Assembly (NCBI RefSeq): GCF_030268965.1
Contig: NZ_BSSE01000021.1
Coordinates: 1-64,000 of the forward strand
Reading direction: 5' to 3'
Origin: Microtetraspora sp. NBRC 16547
GTDB taxonomy: Bacteria > Actinomycetota > Actinomycetes > Streptosporangiales > Streptosporangiaceae
DNA: 64,000 nt
The translations under genes were made by a program, and so were the position numbers. How positions within the stretch are numbered: position 1 is the stretch's first letter; each line of letters opens with the position of its first letter. The notes under the pieces were generated by a model. That model searched no databases. It saw nothing but the letters and a program-made list of their open reading frames with translations, and was not told the DNA's origin. Shown here one piece after another: positions 2,657 through 19,896 of this stretch.

Positions 2657-2675
2657 GCATGGGAGGAGGGTGAGT

Positions 2676-3509: not shown

Positions 3510-3581
3510 CCAGTTCTGGCGCATTTATACGTCGAATGCCTTGAGTAGCTTCTAGCGTTGGTCATACGCTGCCGACATGGA

Positions 3582-3599
3582 TGTATAGCCCCCTATACA
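3582..3599 (+). promoter_or_regulatory. inverted repeat, probable operator for the 3613 gene
   Basis: Perfect 7-bp arms TGTATAG-CCCC-CTATACA immediately upstream of the AGGAG ribosome site of the ATPase gene, and downstream of a -35-like TTGGTC at about 3559. Size and position suit a dimeric HTH regulator. The XRE/DUF5753 protein just upstream is the obvious candidate. Confidence 0.55.
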
Positions 3600-3612
3600 C
3601 AGGAGTACGCCC

Positions 3613-4289: not shown

Positions 4290-4357
4290 GCCCGCACGGT
4301 GTCCCCAACCGACGCTCTGCCATACGCGCAACGAATCCCAAAACCGGCGAATTCGTA

Positions 4358-4399
4358 CCGTCTAGAGGGATAGACGGCATTCTGTCCAGGGGTCTAGAC
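4358..4399 (+). promoter_or_regulatory. paired operator-like palindromes upstream of the HTH gene
   Basis: Perfect inverted repeat CCGTCTA-N6-TAGACGG (4358-4377) followed 15 bases later by the palindrome GTCTAGAC (4392-4399). Both share the GTCTA half-site and lie just before the GGGGGAG ribosome site at 4419. This is what an autoregulated HTH gene would be expected to show. Confidence 0.5.
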
Positions 4400-4426
4400 T
4401 CGGCGGAGTTCAACCCTGGGGGAGCA

Positions 4427-5266: not shown

Positions 5267-6114
5267 TGCGCGTCACCTTCGCCACCGAACCCGCATCCCC
5301 TGACCGGCCCAACGAGGACTTCATCGCCGCAACCCCGGACGCCGTGGTCCTCCTCGATGGCGCGGGTACGCCTGCGGGCTCGGAATCCGGCTGTTCCCAC
5401 GGTGTGGCTTGGTATGCGCGGACGCTCGGCTCAACCCTGATCGCATCTCTGACGCAAAGCGCCGGCACCTTGACGGAGATCTTGGCGGAGGGCATCAAGG
5501 CCACAACGTCGCTGCATGACTTCACCTGCGACGTCACCCATCCCGGCTCGCCCTCGGCAACCGTCGTCATGCTCCGCCGTACCGGTGACCATCTGGGCTA
5601 TCTCGTCTTGGCCGACTCCGTCCTCGTGCTCGACGTAGTCGGCGTCGACGAGCCGATGTTCATCACCGACGACCGGGAAGCACAGGTTGGTAGGCGCTAC
5701 CGGACGGCCATGGATGCGCTGGGCTCCGGCACTCCCGATCACACCGCTGCTCTGCGTGCGTACGTGGAAGCCATGCGGGCGCACCGCAACCGCAACGGCG
5801 GATTCTGGGTCGCCTCATCCGACCCCCTCGCCGCTGAACAAGCGCTCACAGGAACACTTCCCGCTGACCAGATTCGCGCGGCGGCGCTTCTCAGCGATGG
5901 CGCGTCCCGCCTCGTCGACCGCTTCCACATCGCCACCTGGCGGCAAGCCCTCGACATCCTCGACCAGGACAGTCCGGCCGAACTCATCCGCCGAGTCCGC
6001 GAGGCCGAACACACCGACCCCGCAGGCAAGCGCTGGCCACGCGGCAAGACCTTCGACGATGCAACCGCCGTTCACGTCACCGCTGAACAAGGTCACCAGT
6101 TACGGCTGAAATAG
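5266..6114 (+). CDS. PP2C-like protein phosphatase domain protein
   Basis: A 282-residue protein with PP2C landmarks: DRPNEDF near residue 13, VVLLDGAGTPAG near 25 (metal-binding DG), SATVVMLRRTGDHLGYLVLADS in the middle, LLSDGASRLVD, and a final DDATAV. These correspond to metal-dependent Ser/Thr phosphatases, although the family's usual size and C-terminal motif are somewhat divergent. The start overlaps the stop of the HTH protein gene. Together with the RsbW-like ATPase at 3613 this resembles part of a partner-switching signalling module. It is probably cytoplasmic, as no signal peptide or membrane segment is seen. Confidence 0.78.
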   Translation: MRVTFATEPASPDRPNEDFIAATPDAVVLLDGAGTPAGSESGCSHGVAWYARTLGSTLIASLTQSAGTLTEILAEGIKATTSLHDFTCDVTHPGSPSATVVMLRRTGDHLGYLVLADSVLVLDVVGVDEPMFITDDREAQVGRRYRTAMDALGSGTPDHTAALRAYVEAMRAHRNRNGGFWVASSDPLAAEQALTGTLPADQIRAAALLSDGASRLVDRFHIATWRQALDILDQDSPAELIRRVREAEHTDPAGKRWPRGKTFDDATAVHVTAEQGHQLRLK

Positions 6115-6662: not shown

Positions 6663-7187
6663 GAGGGCGTCTGAAAAGCGTAGTTCCTGATTGATTGTTG
6701 GTTACGTGTCTCGCCAGGTTGGAGTGGTTTCGCCGGTGATGCGCCGAGCGAGGTTGTCGATCGACGCGACGCGGATCATCACTGCGGCGTGGTCGGTTCG
6801 GGTTTCGTAGTCGCGAGCGAGTCGGCGGTGGAGCATCAGCCAGCCAAGGGTGCGCTCGACGACCCAACGGCGCTTGACGACGTGGAAGCCGGGCTGGTCG
6901 GAGCGGCGTGGAACGACTTCGACGTCGATCCCCAACCTGGCGCCGTGTTCGATGGCGGCGTTCTTGAAGCCGGTGTCCACCCACGCTTTGGTGATCGTCG
7001 GGTAGGTGGTGCGAGCCTGGGTGAGCAGGGTCTTGCCGATGGCGTTGTCGGACAAGTCGGCGGCGGTGACGGTGACGGCCAGGAGCAGGCCCAGGGTGTC
7101 GGTGAGGATGCCGCGCTTGCGTCCGACGATCTTTACGTCGCCGCGATCCTCAGCGATCCGCGAACCGACACCGCGGTTCCATATGAC
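6663..7187 (-). mobile_element. 5'-truncated IS5-family insertion sequence (transposase remnant)
   Basis: On the minus strand a frame from about 7187 to the stop at 6702 reads AEDRGDVKIVGRKRGILTD, VTVTAADLSDNAIGKTLL, then WVVERTLGWLMLHRRLARDY. This is the C-terminal half of an IS5-type DDE transposase with its catalytic E-x6-K/R helix. The N-terminal half and the left end are missing: the frame runs directly into the HEAT-repeat remnant near 7187. The surviving outer end is near GAGGGCGTCTGAAAAGC at 6663. The element is probably inactive. Confidence 0.8.
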
Positions 7188-7605: not shown

Positions 7606-7730
7606 AATGGGGGCGGGATCCATGGTCCGTAGACGGTTCAGCGGTGCCGCCTTCTGATGTGCGGCCGCGACCTACCGTTGAGCACGGACAATGTGGGGCT
7701 GGCAGCCAGTTCTCGTGCCCTAATGGCCCG

Positions 7731-7765
7731 AACGCCGCTTTCCTTGATCGGGAAAGCGGCGTTTT
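7731..7765 (+). terminator. rho-independent terminator
   Basis: AACGCCGCTTTCC pairs with GGAAAGCGGCGTT across the loop TTGATC and is followed by TTTT. It sits four bases before the first tRNA-Ala attachment core. An equivalent terminator precedes the other att copies, so this may be the last trace of a lost integrase gene. Confidence 0.8.
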
Positions 7766-7768
7766 GGC

Positions 7769-7816
7769 TGGTGGAGCCTAGGAGATTCGAACTCCTGACA
7801 TCCTGCTTGCAAAGCA
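7769..7816 (-). repeat. attachment core 1: tRNA-Ala 3' fragment
   Basis: 48 bases matching the anticodon loop to CCA end of the intact tRNA-Ala(TGC) at 19821-19896, with a single T-to-A difference in the variable-loop region that is shared with the other two cores. It marks the left boundary of element A and would be its attL. Confidence 0.9.
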
Positions 7817-7911
7817 ACTGCAACACACGTTCGACATGGCACGAACCGTCACTGGCCTGCTGGAACCCGTCCGTCGTTGTCCATCAGTGTCCACGGTCGT
7901 GCGGCGGTGTC

Positions 7912-7931
7912 GTCACTCAGTTGGTCACCCA
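7912..7931 (+). promoter_or_regulatory. presumed integrase arm-type site, left end of element A
   Basis: Two GTCACYCA octamers 12 bases apart, beginning 95 bases inside att core 1. The same doublet with the same 95-base gap occurs at 11520 beside core 3. Confidence 0.6.
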
Positions 7932-8122
7932 CTCGCGCCACCAACGTGTTCGGGGCGCCGTTGAGGGCTTGGTCTGGAGGAGTTGCCGCCCTCACGGGGC
8001 TGATTGCAAAGCGGTTCGCATGTCGCGATCAAGGAACATACAAGCGGGCGGCCTTTCACTGGGCACACAACCCCCGGAAGGCAAGGGTGATGCCGGGAAG
8101 CAATCGCACTCAGGAGATCACC

Positions 8123-8911
8123 ATGAAGCGCACCGCACTCGGCCTGGCCACCACCGCGATCGCCGGCCTCGCCGTCCTCCCCACCGCCGTCATCGCCATG
8201 CCTGCATCCGCCGCCGACTACGGTCCCGACACCTGCGTTCAGGGCTACGTCTGGCGCGAGGCACGCCCTTCCGACCACGTCTGCGTCACTCCCGCCGTCC
8301 GCACCCAGACCGCCCAGGACAACAGCGTCAACGCCTCCCGCTGGACCAACGGCGCGTACGGACCGCACACCTGCATCCAGGGATACGTGTGGCGCGAGGC
8401 CTTCACCGGGGACGATGTCTGCGTCACTCCCGCGGTCCGTAGCCAGGCACAAGCCGACAACGCCGCCGCAGCCAGCCGCCTGGCCTCGTCGTCCAGCTTG
8501 CCTTCGCCGATAGCTGTCAACCGCAACGTCACCTTCAGCGGAGGGGTCCCGGTGGGAGGCTGGACATCGCTGACCCTGTACGACAACGGGACCTACCAGT
8601 GGTCCGGACACATGCACGACTCGGGTGCCACCAGCTACAACTTCTCCGGTGTCTGCGTCGTCCGCCTGTCGTCGGGCTCGGCCTTCGTATTCGAAACCTC
8701 CGGACGACTCCACGGAACGTTCGAGTCCGGGTCCCGCGACTACAACTGGAGCAAGTCGGGCACCATCTCCTCCCTCCCCACGGCTTGGCGCGCGTCCTCC
8801 AGCTACAACGCGAACTGCCAGAACAGCGTCAGGCTCAACCTCGCCGGAACCGTGAACGCGGCTCTGGAGGCCGTCGGCTACGCCTCCGCGGTCATCGCGA
8901 TCGTCGCTTGA
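8123..8911 (+). CDS. secreted protein with two YGPxTC-GYVWREA repeats
   Basis: A 262-residue exported protein. Residues 1-30 are a Sec signal peptide (KRT, hydrophobic core, cleavage after MPASA). Two roughly 46-residue repeats follow, each with YGPxTCxQGYVWREA and VCVTPAVR and two conserved cysteines likely to form a disulfide; this repeat is common in uncharacterised actinobacterial secreted proteins. The last 130 residues (VTFSGGVPVGGWTSLTLYDN, then YNFSGVCVVRL) form a beta-rich domain of unknown role. ATG 8123 follows CAGGAG. It is cargo of element A. Function unknown. Confidence 0.75.
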   Translation: MKRTALGLATTAIAGLAVLPTAVIAMPASAADYGPDTCVQGYVWREARPSDHVCVTPAVRTQTAQDNSVNASRWTNGAYGPHTCIQGYVWREAFTGDDVCVTPAVRSQAQADNAAAASRLASSSSLPSPIAVNRNVTFSGGVPVGGWTSLTLYDNGTYQWSGHMHDSGATSYNFSGVCVVRLSSGSAFVFETSGRLHGTFESGSRDYNWSKSGTISSLPTAWRASSSYNANCQNSVRLNLAGTVNAALEAVGYASAVIAIVA

Positions 8912-9013
8912 GAGAACCCGCGACGCCAGCCGATGACGGAGGTGTCCGGTCCGTACGCACCACTCTCCCCCCGCCCCCGATAGCTGCCAGGAATCGCGAC
9001 TGTCGGTCGGGTT

Positions 9014-9098
9014 CTGTCAAGTCCGGCCTTGCGTGTACATGTGCCCGGTGACCTTCCTCGCGCGCTGGGTGGCCTGCCTGCACGGCCGGACTTGACAG
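9014..9098. repeat. 85-bp fold-back element with 15-bp perfect inverted ends
   Basis: CTGTCAAGTCCGGCC (9014-9028) is exactly repeated in inverse orientation at 9084-9098, enclosing 55 bases that do not resemble the flanking genes. It lies at the point where the integrase gene loses its 5' two thirds, so it may be a small transposon-like insertion or a deletion scar. Confidence 0.65.
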
Positions 9099-9138
9099 GT
9101 TCCGGCCGCCGCGAAGACTGGGCAGCCGGGGGCGGGGG

Positions 9139-9547
9139 AGCACTGCACCTTCCAGCGCTGCCCCAGCGGTGTGTTGAGGCACTGCGGAACCTGCGGGAGC
9201 AGGATGGACAGACCCACGAGGCTCATGGGCACAGCGGGACACATAAGAGGCTGGTGTTCTGCACGAAGACCGGAACGGCGCTCAGTGCCGGCAACGTGCG
9301 GCGCGACTTCCGCAAGGTGCTCAAGAGCGCTGGACTCAACGCCAACGAGTGGACGCCGCGCGAGATGCGCCACAGCTTCGTATCGCTGCTGTCGGACTCG
9401 GGCGTCCCTATCGAGAACATCTCGCGCCTGGTCGGCCACGCCAACACCGTGGTCACTGAGACGGTGTACCGGATGCAGATTCGCCCTGTCATGCAAGAAG
9501 GTGCCGCGGCGATGGATGACATCTTCCGAGGTGGCTCGGGCGCTTAG
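9139..9547 (+). pseudogene. C-terminal fragment of a tyrosine integrase
   Basis: From about 9139 the frame reads LPQRCVEALRNL, RLVFCTKTGTALSAGNVRRD, WTPREMRHSFVSLLSDSG and GHANTVVTETVYRMQIRP. It is closely similar to residues 270-397 of the intact integrase at 18571. The arm-binding and core-binding domains and the first catalytic Arg are missing, and the sequence just upstream is the fold-back element. It still ends inside the right arm doublet, as the intact gene does. It cannot be active. Confidence 0.9.
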
Positions 9548-9566
9548 TCACTCAGTTAGTCACTCA
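9547..9566 (+). promoter_or_regulatory. presumed integrase arm-type site, right end of element A
   Basis: GTCACTCA doublet, 12-base period, overlapping the integrase stop codon and ending 37 bases before att core 2. The gap is identical to that between the 19764 doublet and the intact tRNA. Confidence 0.6.
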
Positions 9567-9600
9567 CACCCCGTTTCCGATCTCGGAGGCGGGGTGTTTT
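9567..9600 (+). terminator. terminator after the truncated integrase
   Basis: CACCCCG pairs with CGGGGTG around a short interior loop, followed by TTTT, directly before att core 2. Confidence 0.7.
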
Positions 9601-9603
9601 ACC

Positions 9604-9649
9604 TGGTGGAGCCTAGGAGATTCGAACTCCTGACATCCTGCTTGCAAAG
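9604..9649 (-). repeat. attachment core 2: tRNA-Ala 3' fragment
   Basis: 46 bases identical to core 1 over the shared part. It is the junction between elements A and B (attR of A, attL of B). The match ends inside the anticodon loop region at CTTGCAAAG. Confidence 0.9.
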
Positions 9650-9744
9650 ACGTACGCCGATCTTGCCCCACCAGCGGAAACGCAGATTAGCGCGCCGATC
9701 GTCTTCCCTCTGACTCCCCGCTGTTCCCCCTCGTTTCCCCTCCC

Positions 9745-9766
9745 ATCGGGCACGCGACGGGCACGG
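9745..9766 (+). promoter_or_regulatory. presumed integrase arm-type site, left end of element B
   Basis: ATC followed by GGGCACG-N4-GGGCACG, 11-base period, starting 95 bases after att core 2. An almost identical doublet lies at 11285-11306 near the other end of element B. Confidence 0.5.
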
Positions 9767-10307
9767 CGATACCCGCTGGGGTGGTCTGGGCACTGCACCG
9801 CGCCTCCCCGTGCGCTGGCGACGAGTTGACGCAGGAACCTGCGGATTAAATGTGGAAGGTCCATCTTCGGGCCGCTGCGGCTATGACCTTGGGTTTCGTG
9901 CCGTAGTCCTGGTCGACTGCTGGTCACAATCCGCACATGTTCCGGATCTTGCTTACTGGACGACCGCTTTCAGCGCGCACCCGACCCTGATGGAACTGCC
10001 CATACGTCCTCGTCCTTGACGGGCACCCCCTGGGCGCGGAGATGTTCGGGACCCGGCGCGGGGGCATCCCCATCAATCCTCATCGTCGGAGTCGTCGGCG
10101 TCAGGATCGCGCAAGGCGAGGGATGATTCCCTGCTCACCATGGCCATTCGATCTTGGTCTTGCCAGATAACGAAGGTTATCTCGCAACCCTTCGACGGGC
10201 GAGGCGTTCAGGCTGGAGCTGTGGATCTTTTCAGGACTTCGCCAATCCGGCCGGGGTGCACGGTGGGCGATTACGGTGTGCATAGTGATCTATGGGAAAA
10301 TTTCCCC
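9767..10307. other. stretch without a supportable gene
   Basis: No frame has a recognisable family or good ribosome site. Plus-strand codons near 10017 read LDGHPLGAEMFGTRRGG and could be the end of a decayed gene, but I cannot name it. The last 50 bases are the AT-richer leader of the VOC gene. Confidence 0.4.
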
Positions 10308-10742
10308 ATGGTATCCGTTAAGCAGATTCAAGTCGCCTTCGATTGCGCTTCACCTGAGCGTGTCGGTCGCTTCTGGTGCGAGGTGTTGGGGTATGTCGCG
10401 CCGGCACCGCCTGAGGGGTTCGCCAGTTGGGACGACTTCAATCGCACGCTGCCGCCCGAGCAGCGGGACTCATGGTTCGCATGCAGCGACCCCTCGGGTG
10501 TCGGTCCGCGGCTGTACTTCCAGCGCGTCCCCGAAGGCAAGGTCGCCAAGAATCGGCTGCACCTTGACGTGCGGGTCGGCACCGGACTCGTCGGTGCAGA
10601 GCGCCTGGCAACCCTCGAAGCCGAATGCGCACGATTGATCCCTCTCGGCGCGAAACGCGTGCGGCTCCTGCCCGCCGATGAAGAAAACGAGTCGTGCCTC
10701 GTGATGCAGGACATTGAGGGCAACGAGTTCTGCCTGGGCTGA
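10308..10742 (+). CDS. VOC/glyoxalase-superfamily protein
   Basis: A 144-residue single VOC protein (KQIQVAFDCASPERVGRFWC, then VLGYVAPAPP, GPRLYFQRVPEG, NRLHLDVRV, and QDIEGNEFCLG at the end). This is the betaalphabetabetabeta pattern of glyoxalase-like proteins with possible metal ligands His (NRLHLD) and Glu (GNEFCL). The substrate cannot be read from the sequence; many actinobacterial members are annotated only as glyoxalase-like. ATG 10308 lacks a strong ribosome site, and GTG-type upstream starts are less convincing. It is cargo of element B. Confidence 0.8.
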   Translation: MVSVKQIQVAFDCASPERVGRFWCEVLGYVAPAPPEGFASWDDFNRTLPPEQRDSWFACSDPSGVGPRLYFQRVPEGKVAKNRLHLDVRVGTGLVGAERLATLEAECARLIPLGAKRVRLLPADEENESCLVMQDIEGNEFCLG

Positions 10743-10806
10743 CGAACGTCTACCTCGTTGAACGCGACACAGACCTGACTCGCTGATCGGCTCCCACGGG
10801 GAAGGC

Positions 10807-10965
10807 TGTCCAGCTCTCCCTTCGCACCGCGCCGCTGTTGATCTCGGGAAGATCGGGGATCTCGCCGAGTTCGCGCAGTCCCTCGGAAGGCCCGGACGAA
10901 GCGATGGCATAGCGGCCCAGGAAATTCACGTGGGCGTGGCCCAGCGGGCTGAGCCGGGCGACTGC
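10807..10965 (-). pseudogene. Tn3-family transposase C-terminal remnant
   Basis: The minus frame reads AVARLSPLGHAHVNFLGRYA, the conserved LSPL-x-HxHxNxLGRY end of Tn3-family transposases, followed by GLRELGEIPDLPE. An in-frame TGA lies just upstream on the same strand, and nothing else of the roughly 1000-residue transposase is present. It is a relic of an older insertion in element B. Confidence 0.7.
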
Positions 10966-11170
10966 ACGCGGTGATCAGCCACGTTCCTCGGTGAGCCAGG
11001 GTGAGGAACGAACCCTGGATCGTCGATCGCCCCCAACCATGTGCGGCGTCCAGCCATGCAGTGGCGATCGTAGGGCTGCATCTGTGCGGCGGCGCGGCAA
11101 CCCCGGTCAGCGCGTTCGGGAAGTGCGGCGGGGCCGGCGTGCGGTGCCCGGCCCGGTGTCCCGCCGTCGT
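10966..11170. other. stretch without a gene
   Basis: Continuation of decayed Tn3-like DNA in broken frames leading into the GC-rich repeat. I see nothing functional. Confidence 0.35.
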
Positions 11171-11254
11171 CCGGGACCGGCCCCCAGGCCGCACGCCCGG
11201 ACGGCGGGCGGGCGGAGGGCCGGAGATGCGGCGGCGCGCTGCGCCGCCGCTTGA
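11171..11254 (+). repeat. GC-rich dispersed repeat, copy 2
   Basis: 84 bases, the same length as copy 1 and nearly identical over the first 45. The terminal hairpin (11228-11237 with 11241-11250) keeps the same 10-bp stem with loop GCT instead of GCC, and the TTGA trailer is retained. Confidence 0.7.
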
Positions 11255-11284
11255 CTCCCTCGCGCGAGGACAACTCAAGAGCGG

Positions 11285-11306
11285 ATCGGGCACGCAGCGG
11301 GCACGG
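11285..11306 (+). promoter_or_regulatory. presumed integrase arm-type site, right end of element B
   Basis: ATC followed by GGGCACG-N4-GGGCACG, differing from the 9745 copy only in the spacer, 72 bases before att core 3. A frame through it (ERIGHAAGTEAEEGRIK) resembles an integrase tail, matching the habit of elements A and C of overlapping the integrase stop with the arm site. Confidence 0.5.
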
Positions 11307-11332
11307 AAGCCGAGGAAGGCCGAATAAAGATC

Positions 11333-11373
11333 AAAGCCCAGGTCGGGGAAACCATCCCTCACCTGGGCTTTCT
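11333..11373 (+). terminator. terminator before att core 3
   Basis: AAAGCCCAGGT pairs perfectly with ACCTGGGCTTT, followed by CTTA, just before the core. It is in the same position as the integrase terminators of the other elements. Confidence 0.75.
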
Positions 11374-11378
11374 TATGA

Positions 11379-11424
11379 GTGGAGCCTAGGAGATTCGAAC
11401 TCCTGACATCCTGCTTGCAAAGCA
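11379..11424 (-). repeat. attachment core 3: tRNA-Ala 3' fragment (attL of element C)
   Basis: 46 bases matching the 3' half of tRNA-Ala(TGC), without the terminal CCA (GAGTGG in place of TGGTGG). It shares the variable-loop A with cores 1 and 2. Confidence 0.9.
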
Positions 11425-11519
11425 AGACCGGTGGGGGCGGGACCATGGGCTATACCCGCTCCCACCTGCGCATACGGTCCATGGCGATCCACCGTCGTCC
11501 GGCCTCGTCCAGGGTCGTT

Positions 11520-11539
11520 GTCACCCAGTTCGTCACCCA
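11520..11539 (+). promoter_or_regulatory. presumed integrase arm-type site, left end of element C
   Basis: GTCACCCA doublet, 12-base period, starting 95 bases inside att core 3, exactly as in element A. Confidence 0.6.
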
Positions 11540-11664
11540 GGAAAGCACTCCCACGGGTGGCCTTGCTACACACGTTATCCGAGACGCATCCGGCATTTGG
11601 CGATCAAGCTCTTTTGTCGGTGACGGCTGCGATCATGCCGCTCACCCGATCAAAAGGAGTGACA

Positions 11665-12270
11665 ATGACAGAACCCTACGAAGAGTTCCGGTGGCTCTCC
11701 GGCAACCGACCACTGGGTGAGATCTACTGCGTGTCCTTCGTCCGGGGCCTCTCCCCGACCGAAGTGCTTCACCGATTCGGCGTGGACGAAAGCACGATCG
11801 AGGAAGTGACCTTCGAAGAGCTGGATGAGCGCTCGATGGAGAACTCGAATGGCGCGGCCGGTTACATCGGTGCCGTGAAGATCGGCGACTGGGCCGTAGT
11901 CATCGAACCGGGAGGATGGCAAATCGCCGTCGACTCCGAGATAAGAGCCCGGATCTCACAGGGAACCGAAGTCGTGTCGGTCTGCTGCCACGACTACGCC
12001 TCCGACACCTTCGCCCACGAGATCGACGGGAAAACGATCACCTGGTTCGACCCACTGGCCCCGTCGTCGCGGTCGGGCAGCGATCCTGATCGCCTCGTCG
12101 ACGCGATGCGCGACGTCGGGCTGAACCCCGACCACACCTTCGAAGGCCCGAGCATCGATTACCCGATCCCCAGCTCCTTCGCCCTGGCGAGCAGAATCAC
12201 TGGCCTTCCCTTCTCCCAGGACATGCTGAACCTGCGATTCCTCGGCGCAGAACCCAGCGAGGAGGAATAA
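11665..12270 (+). CDS. DUF6461 family protein
   Basis: A 201-residue cytoplasmic protein beginning MTEPYEEFRWLSGNRPLGEI. It contains the DUF6461 signature phrases YCVSFVRGLSPTEVLHRFG and IGDWAVVIEPGGWQIA, and has no catalytic motif. ATG 11665 follows AAAGGAG. This family occurs widely in actinomycetes, often in accessory DNA or beside defence and toxin genes, but no biochemical role is known to me. It is cargo of element C, alone on its strand. Confidence 0.8.
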   Translation: MTEPYEEFRWLSGNRPLGEIYCVSFVRGLSPTEVLHRFGVDESTIEEVTFEELDERSMENSNGAAGYIGAVKIGDWAVVIEPGGWQIAVDSEIRARISQGTEVVSVCCHDYASDTFAHEIDGKTITWFDPLAPSSRSGSDPDRLVDAMRDVGLNPDHTFEGPSIDYPIPSSFALASRITGLPFSQDMLNLRFLGAEPSEEE

Positions 12271-12319
12271 GCCCCTCCTGTCCCACGTAGATGCGACACG
12301 CCTCCGCCGGAGGCAGCCC

Positions 12320-13552
12320 TTACCCGCGACCACTCAGTTCCCGATACGCCTCGCGTAGCTCGGCGGCTTCCGGCATGCGACGCGTTTCGATGGCACCGAT
12401 CACCTCACGTGCCCTCCAGTAATTGGACGGCACCAACACGCCGCTTGTCATGGTCGTGAGAGCAAGCTGACCCGCCTCGTCAGGCTGATCGGTGGCAAGA
12501 AGCGCCAGAGCAAGATCAAGGCGCGCGGAGGCCGCTCGACGCGGGCGAATCAACCCGTCCGCGGCTGACTCCAGGCGGGCGAGCACCTGCCGGGCGTACG
12601 GCTCGGCGGCCGGGTCTCCCAGCCATGACAGGGTGGTCGCCACGTACGCCTCGCTCTTGGAGGGGTCGTAGCGGTAGTGGTGCTCGGGGTGCTCGGGCAT
12701 CGACAGCGGTGAGACCAGCCGGGCAACGCGGTTCAGCGCATCACGCGTCTCCGGGCCGGAACCCAGTCGCGCCCAGATCCGGCCTTCCTGCGCGGTCGCC
12801 TGGATGTAGGCCGAACTGGTGCGCGGTGCGACCACCTGCGCTCCCTGAGTCAGGGTCAAAGCGCGGCGGTAGTCGCCAGTGGTAACCGCCTGCCATGCCT
12901 CCGTCTCCAGACACCACGCGGCGATCTCGGGATGCTCGGCATGCTTCGCCAACTGGGCAGTTGTCTGAAGCCATGTTCCGGCAGCCTCGAGCTGGCGAAG
13001 GTCGATGTGACATGTGGAGGCCAACAGCGCCAGCCAGCCACCGACCGTGAGGAGACGGCGGTGCTCGGCGAACGTCTTCTTGGCGTCGACCAGGTGCGAG
13101 ACATACGACAGGTGCTGACGTACCCGCTCCAGCAACTCGGCCGGCGGTGTCCCCTGATAAGCCATCGCGAGATCATCGACGGCCAGTTCCAGTCGATCAA
13201 GCGTTTCGGTACCCACGTCGCTGGCGGCGACACGGCGGGTCAGCTCCAACGCCTCCATCTCATCGGCGAAGTGAGGGCCGACCGGTGCTGGGCTTTCCGG
13301 CTCCTCGCTGAACAACTCGGCTTCTGTCGTACCGAACACCCGGCAGTAGAGCAGCCGGTAGGGGTCTTTGGGCTGGTGCTTGCCTGCTTCCCAATCCTTG
13401 ATCATTCGGATCAGGGATTCCCGTTGGGGCAGGCGGGCACGAGTGCGCGGATCGGCGGCGTCGGCAAGGTGCCTGGCCATGTCTCGCTGGGTCCACAACT
13501 TGCCACGCCTTGCGGCGCGTAACCGCAGCGCCCAGGCCGGAACGTTATTCAT
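12320..13552 (-). CDS. XRE-family regulator with TPR-like C-terminal region
   Basis: A 410-residue protein. Residues 5-75 form an XRE HTH (WALRLRAARRGKLWTQRDMA, then MIKDWEAGKHQP). Residues 80-410 are repeated helical hairpins rich in Ala and Leu (LLTVGGWLALLASTCHIDLR, ALTLTQGAQVVAP, ARLDLALALLATDQPDEAGQ), resembling TPR arrays of actinobacterial regulators that sense peptides or partners. I chose ATG 13552, eight bases after GAGG, over GTG 13561. It is divergent from the 13719 gene, with an inverted repeat between them (13566-13601) that is its likely operator. Confidence 0.82.
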   Translation of the reverse strand: MNNVPAWALRLRAARRGKLWTQRDMARHLADAADPRTRARLPQRESLIRMIKDWEAGKHQPKDPYRLLYCRVFGTTEAELFSEEPESPAPVGPHFADEMEALELTRRVAASDVGTETLDRLELAVDDLAMAYQGTPPAELLERVRQHLSYVSHLVDAKKTFAEHRRLLTVGGWLALLASTCHIDLRQLEAAGTWLQTTAQLAKHAEHPEIAAWCLETEAWQAVTTGDYRRALTLTQGAQVVAPRTSSAYIQATAQEGRIWARLGSGPETRDALNRVARLVSPLSMPEHPEHHYRYDPSKSEAYVATTLSWLGDPAAEPYARQVLARLESAADGLIRPRRAASARLDLALALLATDQPDEAGQLALTTMTSGVLVPSNYWRAREVIGAIETRRMPEAAELREAYRELSGRG

Positions 13553-13565
13553 TGTGTGCACCTCG

Positions 13566-13601
13566 GGGGACTGGGGTCCTCCTGTCTCCCCCAGTCTCCC
13601 C
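13566..13601. promoter_or_regulatory. inverted repeat between divergent genes, probable XRE operator
   Basis: GGGGACTGGGG (13566-13576) faces CCCCAGTCTCCCC (13589-13601), with the eight inner bases of each arm perfectly complementary. It lies directly upstream of the regulator start. Confidence 0.5.
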
Positions 13602-13718
13602 TACTCGCACTGTCGGCGCGGGATACCGGGCGATGTCATGGGAGCACCAGGAAAAACGGGACCCGCAGGCGCGGTAACGCCGTACGGGCCCCTTGATCGC
13701 ACACTGGAGGTGCGACCC

Positions 13719-14096
13719 ATGGACAACTGTAAAGCCGTCCCACCCGCCGTTGACGAAGCGACAGTAGAGACCCACGACAAGGCACTGGCCGTCGTACAGC
13801 GGCTTCTCACCGAGCGGGGAATCCGTGCTCACCGCCATCACACGATCAGCCTGGGGCTCTTCGCCAACAGCGCGGCGGCCTGGCCCGACCAGCCGCCTCT
13901 TCGGTCGTGGATGGAGCGACACCCGCCGGAGTTGACCGTGAAAGGTCCGCAGGGCTGGTGCGAAGCCACGGTGACCATGGGGGCGCGCTCGGGCAGCTAC
14001 CTGGTCTCCCTGCGCAACGGCTCCGATCTCCAGGCGGTGCGAAGCGAGCATCCCGAACAGGTGGTTGCCCTGATCATGGCTGCTCGGGGATCGTGA
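13719..14096 (+). CDS. hypothetical protein, 125 aa
   Basis: ATG 13719 follows CTGGAGG. The protein has a helical N-terminal half (HDKALAVVQRLLTERGIRAH) and a mixed C-terminal half (ELTVKGPQGWCEATVTMGAR, then YLVSLRNG). I recognise no family. The stop overlaps the next gene (GTGA), so the two form an operon divergent from the XRE regulator. Probably cargo controlled by that regulator. Function unknown. Confidence 0.6.
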   Translation: MDNCKAVPPAVDEATVETHDKALAVVQRLLTERGIRAHRHHTISLGLFANSAAAWPDQPPLRSWMERHPPELTVKGPQGWCEATVTMGARSGSYLVSLRNGSDLQAVRSEHPEQVVALIMAARGS

Positions 14097-14353
14097 CCGT
14101 GTACGGCTGGATCATCCTGAGCGATGCGGCCACGAAGAGAGTCAACGGCCAGGAAGTCATTGTCACGGCCGGTAAGTCGGGCGACATCGGGGTGGTCATC
14201 AAAGCCTGGGAGAACGCTGAACGCCATCGGATGCTGTACGAACTGGGCAACCTCGGCCGCCTGGTCGATGAGGCAATGACCCACCTCCAGCTCCGCCACC
14301 GCACTCCGGACAGTCGCGAAAGAGACTCACCGGAAAGCGACGACATCCAATGA
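14093..14353 (+). CDS. hypothetical protein, 86 aa
   Basis: GTG 14093 overlaps the stop of the preceding gene by four bases. The sequence begins VTVYGWIILSDAATKRVNGQ and continues with a helical middle (KAWENAERHRMLYELGNLGR) and a charged disordered end. No known domain. It is translationally coupled to the 13719 protein and likely works with it. Confidence 0.55.
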   Translation: MTVYGWIILSDAATKRVNGQEVIVTAGKSGDIGVVIKAWENAERHRMLYELGNLGRLVDEAMTHLQLRHRTPDSRERDSPESDDIQ

Positions 14354-14722
14354 TCGTTGGTTGGGTACGGCAACGCGGCCTTCTCCGTAACCGCATCGCC
14401 GTACCCGACCAGTGACAACCGCACTCAGGTGGCCCGTGTCATCCGGTGGCAACCTGACCCGGAGCACAGGGCCGCCAGGCCCGCGCACCGGAAGCAGGGC
14501 GGCAGAGTCCTTGATCATCTCTATGGAGGCGTTCCTGATGATCACCGAGTGGAGACGGCCGGCGCAATGCCGAATGGCACCCGAAGGGGCCGCGAAGCGG
14601 TTGGGCCGGCGGTCGGAGCGGCAGGCGGCAGCGCGTACCAGGGGCGGCGGGTGCATTCGGTGCGGTGGGCGCTCGGTACGGCGGGCGGCGGGCTTACGCC
14701 GCGCCGTCCCGGCTGGCGCGGG
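14354..14722. other. intergenic stretch before repeat copy 3
   Basis: Increasingly GC-rich DNA without a supported gene. A GCGTTCCTGATGATCACC segment near 14528 and alternating purine tracts lead into the dispersed repeat. Confidence 0.4.
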
Positions 14723-14821
14723 CCGGGACCGGCCGCCAGGGCCGCACGCCCGGCCCGCTGGCCGTGCCGGGGCGGCGGGGCGTGTCCCGCCGTGCGGCGG
14801 CGCGGAGCGCTGGCGCCTTGA
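14723..14821 (+). repeat. GC-rich dispersed repeat, copy 3 (divergent)
   Basis: 99 bases that begin CCGGGACCGGCC and end with TTGA, like copies 1 and 2, with an expanded middle. The terminal hairpin persists as ten pairs with one G-T and one G-G position and loop GGA, suggesting that structure rather than exact sequence is kept. Confidence 0.6.
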
Positions 14822-14888
14822 ACCAGTAAAGAAACTATGAGCCACTGAGTGCGTTGTTGGGCTGTCCACTGAACCCCGCCAGGCTCGG

Positions 14889-15839
14889 CTAGTCTGCGAT
14901 TCGCCGGTCGCTGCTTTCAGCACGGACAAAGTCTGCAGTGTGTCGGTTCGGTTTAAAGAAGACGTGCTTCCGAGCGTTACTGATCTGCCAGCTGTTCATC
15001 CGCTGAACGACAGCGAGTTCGGCAGTCGCGGCAGTTGATCGAGGCCCCATAGAGAGGAGATGCCGAGGTCCGAGCGGCAGAATCATGGCTTTGGCATCAT
15101 CGATCGCAACGTTGGTTTGGACGTCCGTCGCGGTGTCCATAAGATTGCCTTGCCAGCGGAGAGTGATCGCCGGACTGTCGCCAATGATGAAGTGGCCCAT
15201 GGGCGCCCAGATGATTTCGGGGTACCAGTTCTGAAGCCTCTCCTTCGCCAGGGCGAACATTCGCTCGAGGCTGTTGGGAAAGTCTCTGCCTGCGATATGG
15301 GCCTGCGCCGGCGAGGACTCGGCGATCATCCGGGCGGCGTACTCGTCGAGCCTCTTATCATCGAGGTGCTCACCCGTGGCCCGGAGGGCGAGTCTCAGGA
15401 GAGGCTCCCGGTGCGTCTCAAGCAATTTTACTTTCAGCTTTGCGGAGGCCTCCGACAGAGCGTTCGTGTGAACGGTTTTGAACCGGTACGAACGCACCAG
15501 GTGCAATGCCATGAAGTCGCGGAGCAGTGTCAGGTGCTGGGGATCAGTGACCGGGACGTTCTTCTCGGTCGCAGCGAATACCTTCGGCATGTACTGTTCA
15601 GTCTTCTGCCATAGGTCCTCGATCTTCGCCGAGTCATGTTCGACGAAGTCTGTGGCGTTGGCACACACTTTCGGCGAGACCTCCGACTGCCAGTCTGGAT
15701 GATCGAGGTCGAATCTGGTGAGCCGACTGCCCCTGCTACCGCTGCGCCGAACAGTGAACCGGCTCAGGAGCACTTTGGAAACGACATGCTGATTTGTCAC
15801 CTTGCGGGATACAGGAGGCTTTAGCGACGGATCTTGCAC
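14889..15839 (-). CDS. DUF4238 domain protein
   Basis: A 316-residue protein with the DUF4238 pattern: an early basic motif (NQHVVSKVLLSRFTVRRSGS), then a central helical part (LLRDFMALHLVRSYRFKTVH), then WAPMGHFIIGDSPAITLRW and ILPLGPRHLLSMGP. The family is uncharacterised; a nuclease or defence role has been suggested for some members, but no catalytic proof is visible here. GC content is lower than its neighbours (many A/T third positions), a sign of separate acquisition. It is cargo of element C. Confidence 0.65.
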   Translation of the reverse strand: MQDPSLKPPVSRKVTNQHVVSKVLLSRFTVRRSGSRGSRLTRFDLDHPDWQSEVSPKVCANATDFVEHDSAKIEDLWQKTEQYMPKVFAATEKNVPVTDPQHLTLLRDFMALHLVRSYRFKTVHTNALSEASAKLKVKLLETHREPLLRLALRATGEHLDDKRLDEYAARMIAESSPAQAHIAGRDFPNSLERMFALAKERLQNWYPEIIWAPMGHFIIGDSPAITLRWQGNLMDTATDVQTNVAIDDAKAMILPLGPRHLLSMGPRSTAATAELAVVQRMNSWQISNARKHVFFKPNRHTADFVRAESSDRRIAD

Positions 15840-15889
15840 AGACCCATTCTCATGTACGTGGTGACTCCCCGCACACGATTTATGCCGCG

Positions 15890-16762
15890 CTAGATCATGA
15901 GGGCGATGCCGTTGTCGGCGAGTTCTTCGGGAGTGAATACCGCACTGAGGTCATCGGCCAGCTCGGCGCTGTAGCCGATCTCGTAGCGGTTGGCGGGGGC
16001 CTTGACCTCGGTGACCTCGATCGGGTGACCGTTCTGGTGGGCCATCGTGCGGCGGATGATGAGGATCGCCTCGGCGTAGTCCATGCCCAGGCGGGCGCGT
16101 TCGTCTTCGTAGGCGATGCGAGAGGTGGTCAGGGTCATCCACCGGACGGGGCCGTGTTCGCGAATGAGTGACTGGTAGAAGAAGCCGGGCCGCTTGCGGT
16201 ACTGGTCAAAGCGCTTGGGGTTGTCCCAGTCGGGGAGCATGTCGGCGTTGGTGTAGGAGTTGATCTCCAGGCGGGCTGACGCGCCGTGGATGCGGGCGGT
16301 GTGTCCGCGGTGCCACATGCTGCGGCGACGAATGACCGGGTGCCCGGCCCGGACGCCGAGGATGATCGCGGTGTCCCGGTTGGCGGTGATCTTCTCGCCG
16401 GTGAACAGCGGGGTCTCGGGGTCGACGTCGCGCAGGGCCAGGTCCCAGCCGAATTCCTGGATGTCGGGGTGGTTGCCGGGTGCGGCCAAGTCGGGGCGGG
16501 TCTGGTGGCTGATGAGGATGACCTGGCGCTCAGGCATGGGGCGGACGAAGGAGCCGCGTCCGCGCATGACGTAGGCCAGTCCTTCGGAGACCAGGGTGTC
16601 GATGGCCTTGCGCACGGTGGGGCGCGAGACCTCGTAGCGACGGACCAGTTCCGGTTCGCTGGGCAGGGCTCCGCCGGGTGGGTAGCGGCCGTCCAGGATG
16701 GCGCCTCGCAGGTCGCCGGCGATGGTGCGCCAGCGGACGTCTTTGTCTTCGGCGGTCTCCAT
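15890..16762 (-). CDS. GntR-family repressor with UTRA domain (KorSA-like)
   Basis: A 290-residue regulator. Residues 10-75 are a GntR winged helix (IAGDLRGAILDGRYPPGGAL, then PSEPELVRRYEVSRPTVRKA). Residues 95-285 are a UTRA-type effector domain (GHPVIRRRSMWHRGHTARIH, MAHQNGHPIEVTEV). ATG 16762 follows GAGGAG. In pSAM2 and related elements the equivalent protein KorSA represses replication and transfer functions. Here it is divergent from the Rep gene, and two matching palindromes lie in the shared promoter region, so it probably represses both itself and rep. Confidence 0.85.
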   Translation of the reverse strand: METAEDKDVRWRTIAGDLRGAILDGRYPPGGALPSEPELVRRYEVSRPTVRKAIDTLVSEGLAYVMRGRGSFVRPMPERQVILISHQTRPDLAAPGNHPDIQEFGWDLALRDVDPETPLFTGEKITANRDTAIILGVRAGHPVIRRRSMWHRGHTARIHGASARLEINSYTNADMLPDWDNPKRFDQYRKRPGFFYQSLIREHGPVRWMTLTTSRIAYEDERARLGMDYAEAILIIRRTMAHQNGHPIEVTEVKAPANRYEIGYSAELADDLSAVFTPEELADNGIALMI

Positions 16763-16796
16763 GGGCGCTCCTCTTCGTCGTGAACTTCCATAACTA

Positions 16797-16849
16797 CTTG
16801 TACTACAGGTTGCATAGACACAGCAATGTAGGGCAACCTGTACTACAGG
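16797..16849. promoter_or_regulatory. two operator palindromes between GntR and rep
   Basis: CCTGTACTACAGG (16837-16849) is a perfect palindrome around a central C. CTTGTACTACAGG (16797-16809) differs by one base. The centres are 40 bases apart, about four helical turns, which suits cooperative binding by a GntR dimer pair. TGTAC-TACA is close to the TTGTACTACA-type sites known for KorSA. Confidence 0.7.
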
Positions 16850-16877
16850 CAGTGTTGCATGAAGGGAGGTGGTCACC

Positions 16878-18371
16878 ATGAACCAACCGAACGAGCACCA
16901 CGAACAGGCACGACACCCGGAATGGATGACCGATCTGGTCCAGGTGCTCAACGCACCGGGCTACGAGCGGTGGCGATCGATGGTGGCCGGCACCGGCGGC
17001 TGCGCCAACCCGATCCACCTGGCCGGAGAGTCAGCCATCGTCAACACCGACACCGGCGAGATCCTGCACCACTACCGCACCGCCGACGAGCCGTCCGGGC
17101 ATCTGCTGGTGGCCTGCGGCAACCGACGGGCCTCGGTCTGCACATCCTGCTCGGAGGTCTACCGAGCCGACACCTTCCACCTCATCCGAGCGGGCCTGTC
17201 CGGCGGCAAAGGCATCCCGGAGACGGTCAGCGCGCACCCTCGGGCGTTCGTCACCCTCACCGCTCCCTCCTTCGGCCCCGTGCACACCCGGCGAGAGAAG
17301 AACGGAGCCGTGCGGGCCTGCCGTCCCCGCAACCGCGACAAGATCTGTGAGCACGGGCATCCGGTCGGCTGCCACGCTCGCCACGAGCCAAAGGACGAAC
17401 GGCTCGGGCAACCCATCTGCGGCGACTGTTACGACTACGTGGGCGCGGTGCTCTGGCAGGCCCACGCGGGCGCGCTCTGGCACCGCTTCACCCTGGAAGT
17501 ACGGCGCACCCTGGCAGCTGAGGCGGGGCTGAGCCGCATGGCGTTCGGCAAGCAGGTCCGGGTGTCGTTCGCCAAGGTCGCCGAGTATCAGCGGCGCGGC
17601 CTGGTGCACTTTCACGCCATCATCCGCCTCGACGGCCCCGAAGGTGGCAGCCAACCTCCTCCGGACTGGGCTGATCATCGCCTGCTCACCCGGGCGATCC
17701 CTCCGGCCGTCCAGCGGATCACCGTGACCTCACCCCTCAGCGATCTCGGCCGGTGGGATCTGGTCTGGGGTGATCAGCTCGATATCCGGCCCATCCTGCT
17801 CGACTCCAGCGCTGATGGGCTGAGTGAGCGGGCGGTGGCCGGCTACATCGCCAAGTACGCCACCAAGGGTGCCGAAGCCTCCGGCACCGTCGACCACCGC
17901 CTGTCGTGTCCGGCCTGCGGCGGTCGGGGGCGGCTGCGCCTGATGGCCTCCTGCGAACGCTGCCACGGCACCGGCCTCAAACCCGGCCTGCACCTGGACT
18001 CACTCCCCGTCACCGAGCACGCCCGGCGGATGATCCGCACTTGCTGGGAGTTGGGCGCACGCCCGGAGTTCGCCGCGCTACGGCTGCGACCTTGGTCGCA
18101 CATGCTGGGATTTCGCGGCCACTTCTCATCCAAGTCACGCCGTTACTCCACCACCCTCGGTGACCTGCGGCAGGTGCGCGCCGTGCACCGGGCCACCCAG
18201 ACACGCGAACGGCATGGGCTTCCGGCTCTCGCGGATGAGACGACGCTCGTGCTCGGTCACTGGCGTTTCGCCGGAATGGGCTACACCCCCGGTGAGGCGA
18301 TCATGGCCGAACACATCCGGCACCGCGTCTCCCAGGCCCGCGCCATCGCGGCGAAGCGGGAGGACGGTTGA
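16878..18371 (+). CDS. RepSA-like rolling-circle replication initiator
   Basis: A 497-residue AICE replication protein. Cysteine clusters early (CTSCSEVYRADTF, CGDCYDY) and late (CPACGGRGRLRL, CERCHGTG) suggest zinc sites. The HUH nuclease motif is GLVHFHAIIRLDG, about residue 240, and the likely catalytic tyrosine lies in VAGYIAKYATKGAE, about residue 325. It should nick the element's double-strand origin and start rolling-circle synthesis after excision. ATG 16878 follows AAGGGAGG. It overlaps xis by four bases, giving the rep-xis-int operon. Confidence 0.9.
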   Translation: MNQPNEHHEQARHPEWMTDLVQVLNAPGYERWRSMVAGTGGCANPIHLAGESAIVNTDTGEILHHYRTADEPSGHLLVACGNRRASVCTSCSEVYRADTFHLIRAGLSGGKGIPETVSAHPRAFVTLTAPSFGPVHTRREKNGAVRACRPRNRDKICEHGHPVGCHARHEPKDERLGQPICGDCYDYVGAVLWQAHAGALWHRFTLEVRRTLAAEAGLSRMAFGKQVRVSFAKVAEYQRRGLVHFHAIIRLDGPEGGSQPPPDWADHRLLTRAIPPAVQRITVTSPLSDLGRWDLVWGDQLDIRPILLDSSADGLSERAVAGYIAKYATKGAEASGTVDHRLSCPACGGRGRLRLMASCERCHGTGLKPGLHLDSLPVTEHARRMIRTCWELGARPEFAALRLRPWSHMLGFRGHFSSKSRRYSTTLGDLRQVRAVHRATQTRERHGLPALADETTLVLGHWRFAGMGYTPGEAIMAEHIRHRVSQARAIAAKREDG

Positions 18372-18574
18372 CCGCACTCCGACCGCCCGGCGACCGGCGG
18401 CTGTATCGCGTCAGCGAAGCCATGTACCTGCTCAGCATGAGCCGCAGCGTGATCTACGAACAGATCAGATCGGGCCGTCTGCGCTCGGTCACCCAGGGCC
18501 GTACCCGGCTCATTCCGGCCTCGGCCATCTCCGACTACGTGGCACTACTCGAACAGGAAGCGAGGGCATCATGA
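18368..18574 (+). CDS. xis: excisionase (helix-turn-helix, MerR/Xis type)
   Basis: A 68-residue DNA-binding protein with a compact winged-helix motif (YRVSEAMYLLSMSRSVIYEQ, then IRSGRLRSVTQGRTRLIPAS), the usual form of AICE Xis proteins that bias the integrase towards excision. TTG 18368 overlaps the rep stop, and its own stop overlaps the integrase ATG, so all three are translationally coupled. Confidence 0.88.
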   Translation: MTALRPPGDRRLYRVSEAMYLLSMSRSVIYEQIRSGRLRSVTQGRTRLIPASAISDYVALLEQEARAS

Positions 18575-19764
18575 CCACACGACGCAGCCGGGGAGACGGC
18601 GGCCTGCACTGGGACGAACAGCGAGAACGCTGGGTCGCCACGGTAACGGTCGGCTATACCCCGGCCGGAAAGCGCATCGTCAAGAAAGCCAGTGGCAAGA
18701 CCAAGACCGAAGCCAAGGCCAAGCTCAAAGAGATCATCCGCGACTACGAAGACGGGCTGGCCATCGCGTCGGGCGGCTACACCGTGGCCGATGCCGTCAA
18801 GTACTGGCTTGAGCACGGGCTGAAGGGACGGGGGAGTAAGACGGTCGGCCTGTACACCGAGTTCGCCGAGAATCACGTCATCTCCGCCCTTGGCGCGCGC
18901 AAGCTCCGTGATCTCTCGGTGGAGGATGTTGACCGTTGGCTGGCGAGTAAAGCCCCGGAACTCAGCACGCGGACGCTCAAGATGATCCACGGCATCCTCA
19001 ACCGGTCGGTGAAGAACGCCATGGTCCGCGACAAGGTGAAACGGAACGTCGTGGATCTCTGCGAGGTCCCCGAGGGGCGTGAAGGGCGCAAGTCCAAGGC
19101 ACTCACGCTGGCCCAGGCCACGGCCGTGATGGCGGCTACGGAACAGGCGAACGCACGTATGCGCGGGTATGTCGTCCTGTCGCTGCTCACCGGAGCCCGG
19201 ACCGAGGAACTGCGCGAACTGTCCTGGACACACGTGGTGGCGTTCGACCAAGAACGCAAGATGTGGCTTCCCGTCACGGTGGCGGGATGGGAGCACACCG
19301 AGTACGCCGTCTACGTGTGGCGGTCGGTACGGCAGAGCGGTGACACGAAGACCGTCAAGTCCCGCCGGACCCTCAAGCTGCCACAGCTCTGTGTCGAGGC
19401 GCTTCGAAAGCTCTGGGAGCACGAAGGGCTCAGCGACGGGGCCGCGCATCAGAGCGCAACTGACAGGCTGGTGTTCTGCACGAAGAACGGGACCGCGCTG
19501 AGTGCCGGCAACGTCCGGCGGGACTTTCGGAAGATCCTCAAAGACGCCGGGCTGGTCGACGCGGAGTGGACACCCAGGGAGATGCGCCACAGCTTCGTGT
19601 CACTGCTCTCGGACTCGGGCGTCCCCATCGAGCACATCTCGCGACTGGTCGGCCACGCCAACACCGTGGTCACCGAGACGGTCTACCGTCTCCAGATCCG
19701 CCCCGTCATGCAGGAAGGCGCGACGGCGATGGACGGCCTGTTCGGGAACAGGCAAGAGGCTTAG
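18571..19764 (+). CDS. int: tyrosine site-specific integrase (tRNA-Ala target)
   Basis: A 397-residue integrase. It has an N-terminal arm-binding region (residues 1-60), a core-binding SAM-like domain (about 65-165) and a catalytic domain with Arg210 (TGARTEELREL), Arg339 (WTPREMRHSF), His362 (GHANTVV) and nucleophile Tyr372 (ETVYR). The usual first His of H-x-x-R is Arg336, as in many actinomycete element integrases. The gene ends inside the right arm doublet, 57 bases from the tRNA. The truncated copy at 9139 is its close relative. Confidence 0.93.
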   Translation: MTTRRSRGDGGLHWDEQRERWVATVTVGYTPAGKRIVKKASGKTKTEAKAKLKEIIRDYEDGLAIASGGYTVADAVKYWLEHGLKGRGSKTVGLYTEFAENHVISALGARKLRDLSVEDVDRWLASKAPELSTRTLKMIHGILNRSVKNAMVRDKVKRNVVDLCEVPEGREGRKSKALTLAQATAVMAATEQANARMRGYVVLSLLTGARTEELRELSWTHVVAFDQERKMWLPVTVAGWEHTEYAVYVWRSVRQSGDTKTVKSRRTLKLPQLCVEALRKLWEHEGLSDGAAHQSATDRLVFCTKNGTALSAGNVRRDFRKILKDAGLVDAEWTPREMRHSFVSLLSDSGVPIEHISRLVGHANTVVTETVYRLQIRPVMQEGATAMDGLFGNRQEA

Positions 19765-19783
19765 TCACCCAGATAGTCACTCA
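19764..19783 (+). promoter_or_regulatory. presumed integrase arm-type site, right end of element C
   Basis: GTCACCCA and GTCACTCA, 12-base period, overlapping the integrase stop and ending 37 bases before the tRNA 3' end. It is positionally identical to the doublet at 9547. Confidence 0.6.
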
Positions 19784-19820
19784 AGCCTGGTTTTCAAGAT
19801 CACATAATGAGTGTTTTTGC

Positions 19821-19896
19821 TGGTGGAGCCTAGGAGATTCGAACTCCTGACTTCCTGCTTGCAAAGCAGGCGCTCTGCCAACTGAGCTAAGGCCCC
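19821..19896 (-). tRNA. tRNA-Ala(TGC), intact, attachment site
   Basis: 76 bases with encoded CCA. The acceptor stem GGGGCCT pairs with AGGCTCC, including the G3-U70 pair that identifies alanine tRNAs. The anticodon loop TTTGCAA gives anticodon TGC, and the T arm is GGAGTTCGAATCTCC. The gene remains complete next to the element, so integration restores it. In related genomes this tRNA sits beside tRNA-Ile(GAT) and DLW-39. Confidence 0.97.

Follow-up and report, generated by a model that had tools for sequence, protein, structure and literature searches.

Several integrative elements of actinomycetes offer close points of comparison for the locus described here. In pACPL, an actinomycete integrative and conjugative element (AICE) of Actinoplanes sp. 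SE50/110, a 43-nt attP identity segment lies between two 21-nt repeats (PMC3364876). These repeats, GTCACCCAGTTAGT(T/C)AC(C/T)CAG, were likened in that report to the arm sites of pSAM2 from Streptomyces ambofaciens, which are reportedly bound by the integrase Int and required for recombination (PMC3364876). Remnants that hold attL and attR without integration genes, stacked with a fuller element, have been described as cis-mobilisable elements (CIMEs) (PMC5704250), and accretion of AICE and DAICE elements at a single tRNA gene is on record in Streptomyces (PMC9513070). Here we analyze a 64,000-nt stretch of Microtetraspora sp. NBRC 16547 (positions 1 to 64,000 of contig NZ_BSSE01000021.1, hereafter the window), where three elements, A, B and C, lie in tandem on one tRNA-Ala(TGC) gene. 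We consider it highly likely that they form, by accretion, a stack of pSAM2-like integrative elements and remnants, in which paired repeats, or doublets, are integrase arm sites at held distances from the core.

The stack is laid out on copies of the tRNA. The intact gene, found by tRNA detection, occupies 19821-19896 on the minus strand, and three partial copies on that strand, 98% identical to its 3′ part, form the cores at the left end of A (7769-7816), the A/B junction (9604-9649) and the B/C junction (11379-11424). The intact gene would owe its 3′ half to the right end of C. The pattern GTCACYCA-N4-GTCACYCA, which we call the A-type arm word, matches the window exactly at 7912, 9547, 11520 and 19764, where we calculate that about 1e-4 exact matches are expected by chance in 64 kb; at up to three mismatches there are nine matches against a shuffle mean of 2.1. 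All four exact doublets read on the plus strand. The left arms of A (GTCACTCAGTTGGTCACCCA, 7912-7931) and C (GTCACCCAGTTCGTCACCCA, 11520-11539) are each separated from their core by 95 bases, and the right arms of A (GTCACTCAGTTAGTCACTCA, 9547-9566) and C (GTCACCCAGATAGTCACTCA, 19764-19783) by 37 bases. A terminator-like hairpin sits in this 37-base spacer in A (9567-9603, plus strand). The four tRNA copies and the four doublets with their gaps had been proposed in a sequence-only reading of this DNA, and both were borne out base for base.

Paired GTCAC-type repeats flank the core on both sides, as in pSAM2, and judged from sequence they are very probably integrase arm sites. The same role had been suggested by the sequence-only reading, and it gains support from the spacing found elsewhere and from the published arm repeats of pACPL and pSAM2. 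The pACPL repeat is almost the same as the doublet here, and int, xis and repSA lie beside attP in that element as well; pACPL differs in its tRNA-Pro target and its tra gene, and the relevant passages of its description state no spacing rule (PMC3364876).

The spacing recurs in other genomes. We scanned 297 genomes of the order with patterns that join the tRNA T-loop to the doublet; these demand TCGAACY, so that tRNAs with another T-loop are missed. A right end was matched in 77 genomes and a left end in 69, against none and one with the reversed-pattern control. Within the spans visible to the patterns (127-157 bases left, 72-102 right), left spans were 144-146 bases in 83 of 98 matches and 134 in six, with a mode of 145, while the 106 right spans fell at 79-84 (67), 90-94 (31), 101-102 (four) and elsewhere (four). 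Distances were also anchored on the anticodon; 74 sequences were examined (the 60 loci L127-L186, the 13 loci L053-L065 and the window piece), of which those with a detected intact tRNA gave values. The 28 distinct left ends lay at 100 (19), 99 (three), 89 (three), 101 (two) and 102 (one), and the 48 distinct right ends at 77-82, 86, 88-92 and 99-100, across tRNAs for Ala, Val, Thr, Pro and Phe. Counted from the anticodon, the doublet is thus about 100 (or 89) bases away on the left and about 79, 90 or 100 on the right. The fixed distances of the sequence-only reading hold beyond the window, but the values 95 and 37 themselves depend on the tRNA.

Outside the family, A-type arms are sparse. 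Matches in 345 genomes at class level occurred on the right in 17 and on the left in 16, numbers that include family members and chance hits; those from outside the family looked chance-like by eye in 6/11 right and 5/8 left cases, and the reversed control gave two matches in one scan. Six of the 145 genomes in the genus of G380 had matches, by eye only that of G380 itself being a real left end, and the exact GTCAC rule looks rare there. Some arms are triple rather than double, at G142:C31:55274 and G128:C35:9077 (A-type) and at G016:C1:3054335 (of the D-type introduced below).

Elements can also be compared by their integrases. Nine other fetched elements carry a full-length integrase whose length-weighted identity to that of C is 70% or more. 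Four came from an integrase search that ignored spacing (L053 82%, L054 83%, L055 74% and L056 75%) and five were fetched through a spacing-pattern match (L145 71%, L150 77%, L153 72%, L172 71% and L175 71%; the values for L150 and L153 derive from matches in pieces). The doublet lies 55-56 bases before the T-loop in all nine, the window value being 55. The sequence-only reading had staked its claim on the doublet being neither absent nor randomly spaced above 70% integrase identity, and the 9/9 spaced as expected bear it out. Five of six left ends of such elements are 100 bases from the anticodon (L167 = L053, L168 = L054, L150, L153 and L172); for the sixth, L175, the measured span is 144. 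The full integrase is not directly followed by the arm at the tRNA in L053 and L056, where 1.7 and 1.1 kb separate the two. Doublets were checked at 11 of the 14 loci of the integrase search (L061, L063 and L066 left out). Among the fetched elements, 29 others encode a near-full-length integrase (identity 49-83%); many of these had been obtained by pattern, and in 28 the doublet precedes the T-loop, at 53-56 (16), 63-65 (eight) or 74-75 bases (four).

Could the identical spacing be mere inheritance, A and C being copies of one int-attP cassette whose distances are unconstrained? In favor of this, the integrase fragment of A is 77% identical to the integrase of C over aligned residues ~269-392, and int usually travels with the right arm, the doublet being at most 51 bases from the end of the integrase alignment in 23 of the 29 elements. 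Yet the gaps of A and C share only 40% identity in the left pair and 54% in the right pair, so their equal length does not come from near-identical copies. Left spacers in general have a median ungapped identity of 0.44 over 171 pairs and keep their length, which is most simply read as a length constraint; that length persists over several tRNA species, and most changes in it amount to ~10-11 bases. We dropped pure copying in view of the 40% spacer identity and regard it as improbable.

Alternatively, the doublets might serve the int operon as operators or as pieces of its terminator, with a GntR regulator as one example of a protein binding them. The right doublet does overlap the int stop codon, the overlap falling on an identical base in 31 of 39 C-terminal integrase open reading frames (ORFs) ending near an A-type arm, and a strong hairpin follows it (48 right spacers, median -24.6 kcal/mol, z below -2 in 40/48). 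However, the same doublet also marks the far left end, where its distance from the core is fixed and no int is adjacent, and it persists in L160 and L164, where no integrase was found. In pSAM2, Int reportedly binds similar repeats (PMC3364876). Presence at the int-less end led us to drop this explanation, which we hold to be very improbable. With a widened integrase motif, no integrase-like ORF was found at 44 A-, 16 B- and five D-type matches.

Several observations weigh against arm sites at held distances. The ends are related by descent, and their counts are not independent trials; the patterns, moreover, covered distances within the visible spans only. A helical period fits poorly, with a best right-hand value of 10.25-10.5 that 10-11 nearly equals and a left-hand peak at 11.25-11.5, and one right end lies at 86. 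L062 (integrase 59%) has no doublet at its tRNA-Val, L156 (49%) has a doublet with no T-loop nearby, and the arm does not directly follow the integrase in six of the 29 elements. Two of the eight exact GTCAC doublets in the whole genome, C11:60949 and C11:164555 (L186 and L166), are not placed at a tRNA core. In the other arm types described below, the left arm departs from the A rule, by 4-5 bases outward for B-type elements at tRNA-Gly and by 12-14 bases inward for D-type elements. An integrase fragment, 57% identical, is found near the unplaced doublet of L166.

Between the crossover and the left doublet, all three elements hold direct repeats one helical turn apart within the attachment site. 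These are GTCC, GTCC, GTCC and GTGC in A, at -43/-33/-23/-13 of the doublet (7869-7902), and GTCC, ATCC, GTCC and GTCC in C (11477-11510); B has repeats of another type, TCCCT, TCCCC, TCCCC and TCCCC, at -43/-33/-23/-12 (9705-9740), all on the plus strand. Positions -43, -33, -23 and -13 account for 63 of the 67 GTCC words in 28 left spacers, with 13-18 per position against at most four in 100 shuffled sets. In a larger set of 74 left ends the four counts are 32, 44, 37 and 41. The A-type left ends at 89 include two, L178 and L181, that read as having one repeat fewer, and L179, without clear repeats. Published excisionase sites have this form, direct repeats at intervals of one turn (PMC7498355). 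For recombination directionality factors such as phage 186 Apl, the direct repeats in the attachment site likewise lie 10-11 bp apart (PMC7498355); their sequence differs from that in the stack elements, where binding is putative. On this analysis the phased repeats are most likely excisionase sites.

Host factors bend attP in other systems, and the phased GTCC repeats could be sites for such a protein (IHF/HU-like) or for the integrase. We find this rather unlikely. It would accommodate the non-significant link between repeats and excisionase (Xis) identity (Spearman 0.39, p 0.15, n 15), which also counts against our assignment, where Xis binding is itself deduced; a claim of covariation is unsupported by these values. 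The three most divergent Xis proteins (48, 52 and 60%) accompany poor GTCC repeats, but L058 and L147 have poor repeats too despite a near-standard Xis. Against host factors stand the published excisionase sites, with the same one-turn register (PMC7498355), and the B- and D-type elements, whose different repeats at a similar register point to a protein encoded by the element and not by the host. The 32 B-type left ends carry TCCCC-type repeats in nearly the register of A-type GTCC, and many D-type left ends show by eye about three such repeats, with the arm 12-14 bases nearer. In the left spacers of L173 and L174, GTGC replaces GTCC at two phased positions; their Xis helix-turn-helix (HTH) reads SRRYLYQEIR instead of SRSVIYEQIR. 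A TGACCTG-like word precedes the left doublets, at about -58 in A-type and -67 in B-type elements, and many right ends have it again immediately beyond the 3′ end of the tRNA.

Element C is the fullest of the three. Its genes run RepSA-type initiator, excisionase, integrase, arm and tRNA, so that a tyrosine integrase and an excisionase adjoin the attachment site at the tRNA 3′ end, as in pSAM2-type AICEs. In pSAM2 the genes for Int, Xis and RepSA reportedly lie by att in this order. The initiator (16869-18371, plus strand) scores 553 bits with Pfam RepSA (cut-off 34) and 531 bits with the NCBIfam equivalog, below its cut-off of 700. The excisionase (18368-18574, plus; HTH_17 in Pfam, TIGR01764 in NCBIfam) is followed by the integrase (18571-19764, plus), which has an Arm-DNA-bind_4 domain and whose stop TAG (19762-19764) overlaps the right arm. 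Domain searches further identified a DUF6461 protein (11665-12270, plus) and a DUF4238 protein (14889-15839, minus) as cargo, an NsdA-family TPR-like regulator (12320-13561, minus) and a GntR/UTRA regulator (15890-16951, minus), which we take to stand in place of korSA of pSAM2. No Pfam match to an FtsK/SpoIIIE-type transfer protein was found in the 15 ORF translations of C scanned, which make up part of its ORFs (seven at E 0.001 and eight at E 0.01). As no transfer protein was recognized, in which C differs from pSAM2, we file C as AICE-like and not as a complete AICE. The likeness to pSAM2 includes its Int-bound arm repeats, described as similar to those of pACPL (PMC3364876).

Elements A and B are reduced. 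A contains a secreted-looking protein (by eye) without a Pfam or NCBIfam match (8123-8911, plus strand) and a C-terminal integrase fragment (9155-9547, plus), whose stop TAG overlaps the right arm. B carries a Glyoxalase_6 domain protein identified by domain search (10308-10742, plus). The sequence-only reading had rightly given arms to A and C, but B is not arm-less; it has plus-strand doublets of its own, of a GGGCACG type, at 9748-9765 (GGGCACGCGACGGGCACG) and 11288-11305 (GGGCACGCAGCGGGCACG), and these led us to reject the idea that B is mere filler. At its right end, about 12 integrase-end-like codons (LARGQLKSGSGT) run into the doublet (11259-11305, plus). They resemble the integrase end of L224, LARGALTKKPSGT followed by the stop. 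L224 has a GGGCACG-type doublet at the stop codon of its own integrase, beside a partial tRNA-Ala core; this integrase and that of C share about 25% identity.

Both A and B retain attL and attR and have lost integration and transfer genes, A keeping integrase residues ~269-392 and B the ~12 codons; one main ORF scanned from each gave no match to a transfer protein. Since they hold both ends but only 3′ integrase pieces, A and B look, from sequence, like cis-mobilisable remnants. Their stacking with the fuller C at one tRNA agrees with described CIMEs and accretion, and differs in that two arm types (three with the remnant described next) share one stack and in that mobilization here is putative.

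Directly to the left of the first core, abutting it, lies the right end of an older, fourth element (7721-7768, plus strand), with a D-type half arm, TAATGGCCCG, and a hairpin-like stretch. It resembles right ends of the same genus in L294, L295 and L296; two half-arms adjoin the tRNA in L294 and L296, and L295 has an altered form. The stack therefore holds at least four elements or remnants, so that the count of three in the sequence-only reading was too low, and the core at 7769 is not the outer border. Because window base 1 is the first base of the contig, the left border is out of view and the stack may extend further; additional tRNA-Ala cores with D-type left ends lie on contigs C53 and C45 of the same genome. 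Window positions 2677-6070 are 92% identical to the sequence between the last two tRNA cores of G198 (L296), in the same genus. Other features left of A are a DDE transposase fragment (6702-7055, minus strand), a protein with a weak match to the NucS C-terminal domain (1571-2656) and, next to it, an HTH/DUF5753 regulator (2544-3509), in a region shared with a sister-species element.

The orthologous tRNA-Ala, beside a HAD-type gene, has at least one further core copy in all eight relatives examined there, which were chosen from 25 for a visible flank and extra core copies, and A-, B- or D-type pieces occur at several of the eight sites. At least among these relatives, the site is a hot spot.

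From the observed sequences, spacing and gene content we propose a model of entry, binding, bending and excision. After the old D-type right end, A, B and C would have followed in that order, each entering by a crossover in the anticodon loop that rebuilt the tRNA 3′ half. The N-terminal domain of the integrase would grip the doublet on each side while its catalytic domain works at the core. Arm and core would have to meet through DNA bending, which would hold their distances and let them shift by about one helical turn. For excision, the excisionase would assemble on the four 10-bp-phased repeats and bend the DNA. The Int and Xis of C should excise C, A, or A, B and C together, and B might be excised as well, since A-type arms lie just outside both of its ends.

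Three arm words appear in the family, namely GTCACYCA (A), GGGCACG (B) and TAATGGC (D), each as a doublet. The B-type left pattern matches 76 of 200 family genomes and the right pattern seven, several not at a tRNA; the right pattern's gap limit of 80 missed B's own right end, and this low count is no sign of absence. The D-type pattern, found in 44 of 140 genomes, follows a plan similar to A with a shorter left arm. The arm overlaps the integrase stop in 3/3 B-type and 3/4 D-type cases. In a tree of 27 integrases, with only two B and two D sequences, B and D form one unresolved clade apart from A. Taking these points jointly, we tentatively suggest, as an idea about which we remain somewhat doubtful, that one attachment-site blueprint in the family is common to tRNA-targeting elements with three arm words and integrases of at least two groups. 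An anticodon-loop crossover would be followed by three or four excisionase repeats ~10 bp apart, whose number would set the distance of the arm doublet (~100 for four repeats, 87-89 for three), and another doublet would overlap the integrase stop codon. GTCAC, GGGCAC and TAATGGC would act as addresses in mixed stacks; one integrase could then release cassettes that lack int but bear its address, and even a foreign one lying between two of its sites.

Small units with arms are found in relatives. Several two-armed units enclose only 2-4 kb, with a partial integrase (residues 197-391 in L131, 113-391 in two pieces in L155, 300-393 in L159, 300-391 in L161, 264-391 in L162 and 274-391 in L165) or, in L160 and L164, none found. 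Their cargo includes a GntR regulator in L160 and L161 and a glyoxalase-like protein in L164, and such two-armed mini-units fit the published description of CIMEs (PMC5704250). No left arm was detected in L154 (1.8 kb). Two units of 1.2-1.3 kb between cores (L153 1917-3176 and L147 3419-4628, oriented coordinates) have a left arm and no detected right arm, and carry one or two genes, SUKH (SMI1/KNR4) in L147 and Gp49-like in L153.

That such repeats are arm sites is already known (PMC3364876), and tandem AICEs and accretion have been described (PMC3218068, PMC9513070). For the spacing rule over many tRNAs, for the phased repeats and for the B and D words, no precedent turned up in the literature searched, subscription journals being outside it, and the literal sequence words matched only the pACPL paper (PMC3364876).

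The analysis turns a repeat pair into a usable rule, in which core, phased repeats and doublet together guide the search for the ends of an element. This rule could reach small, gene-poor or decayed tRNA elements that gene-based finders miss. It also names a candidate excisionase site and predicts which pieces one integrase could release. For the family, the stacks provide comparison material on how a change of arm word accompanies a change of integrase.

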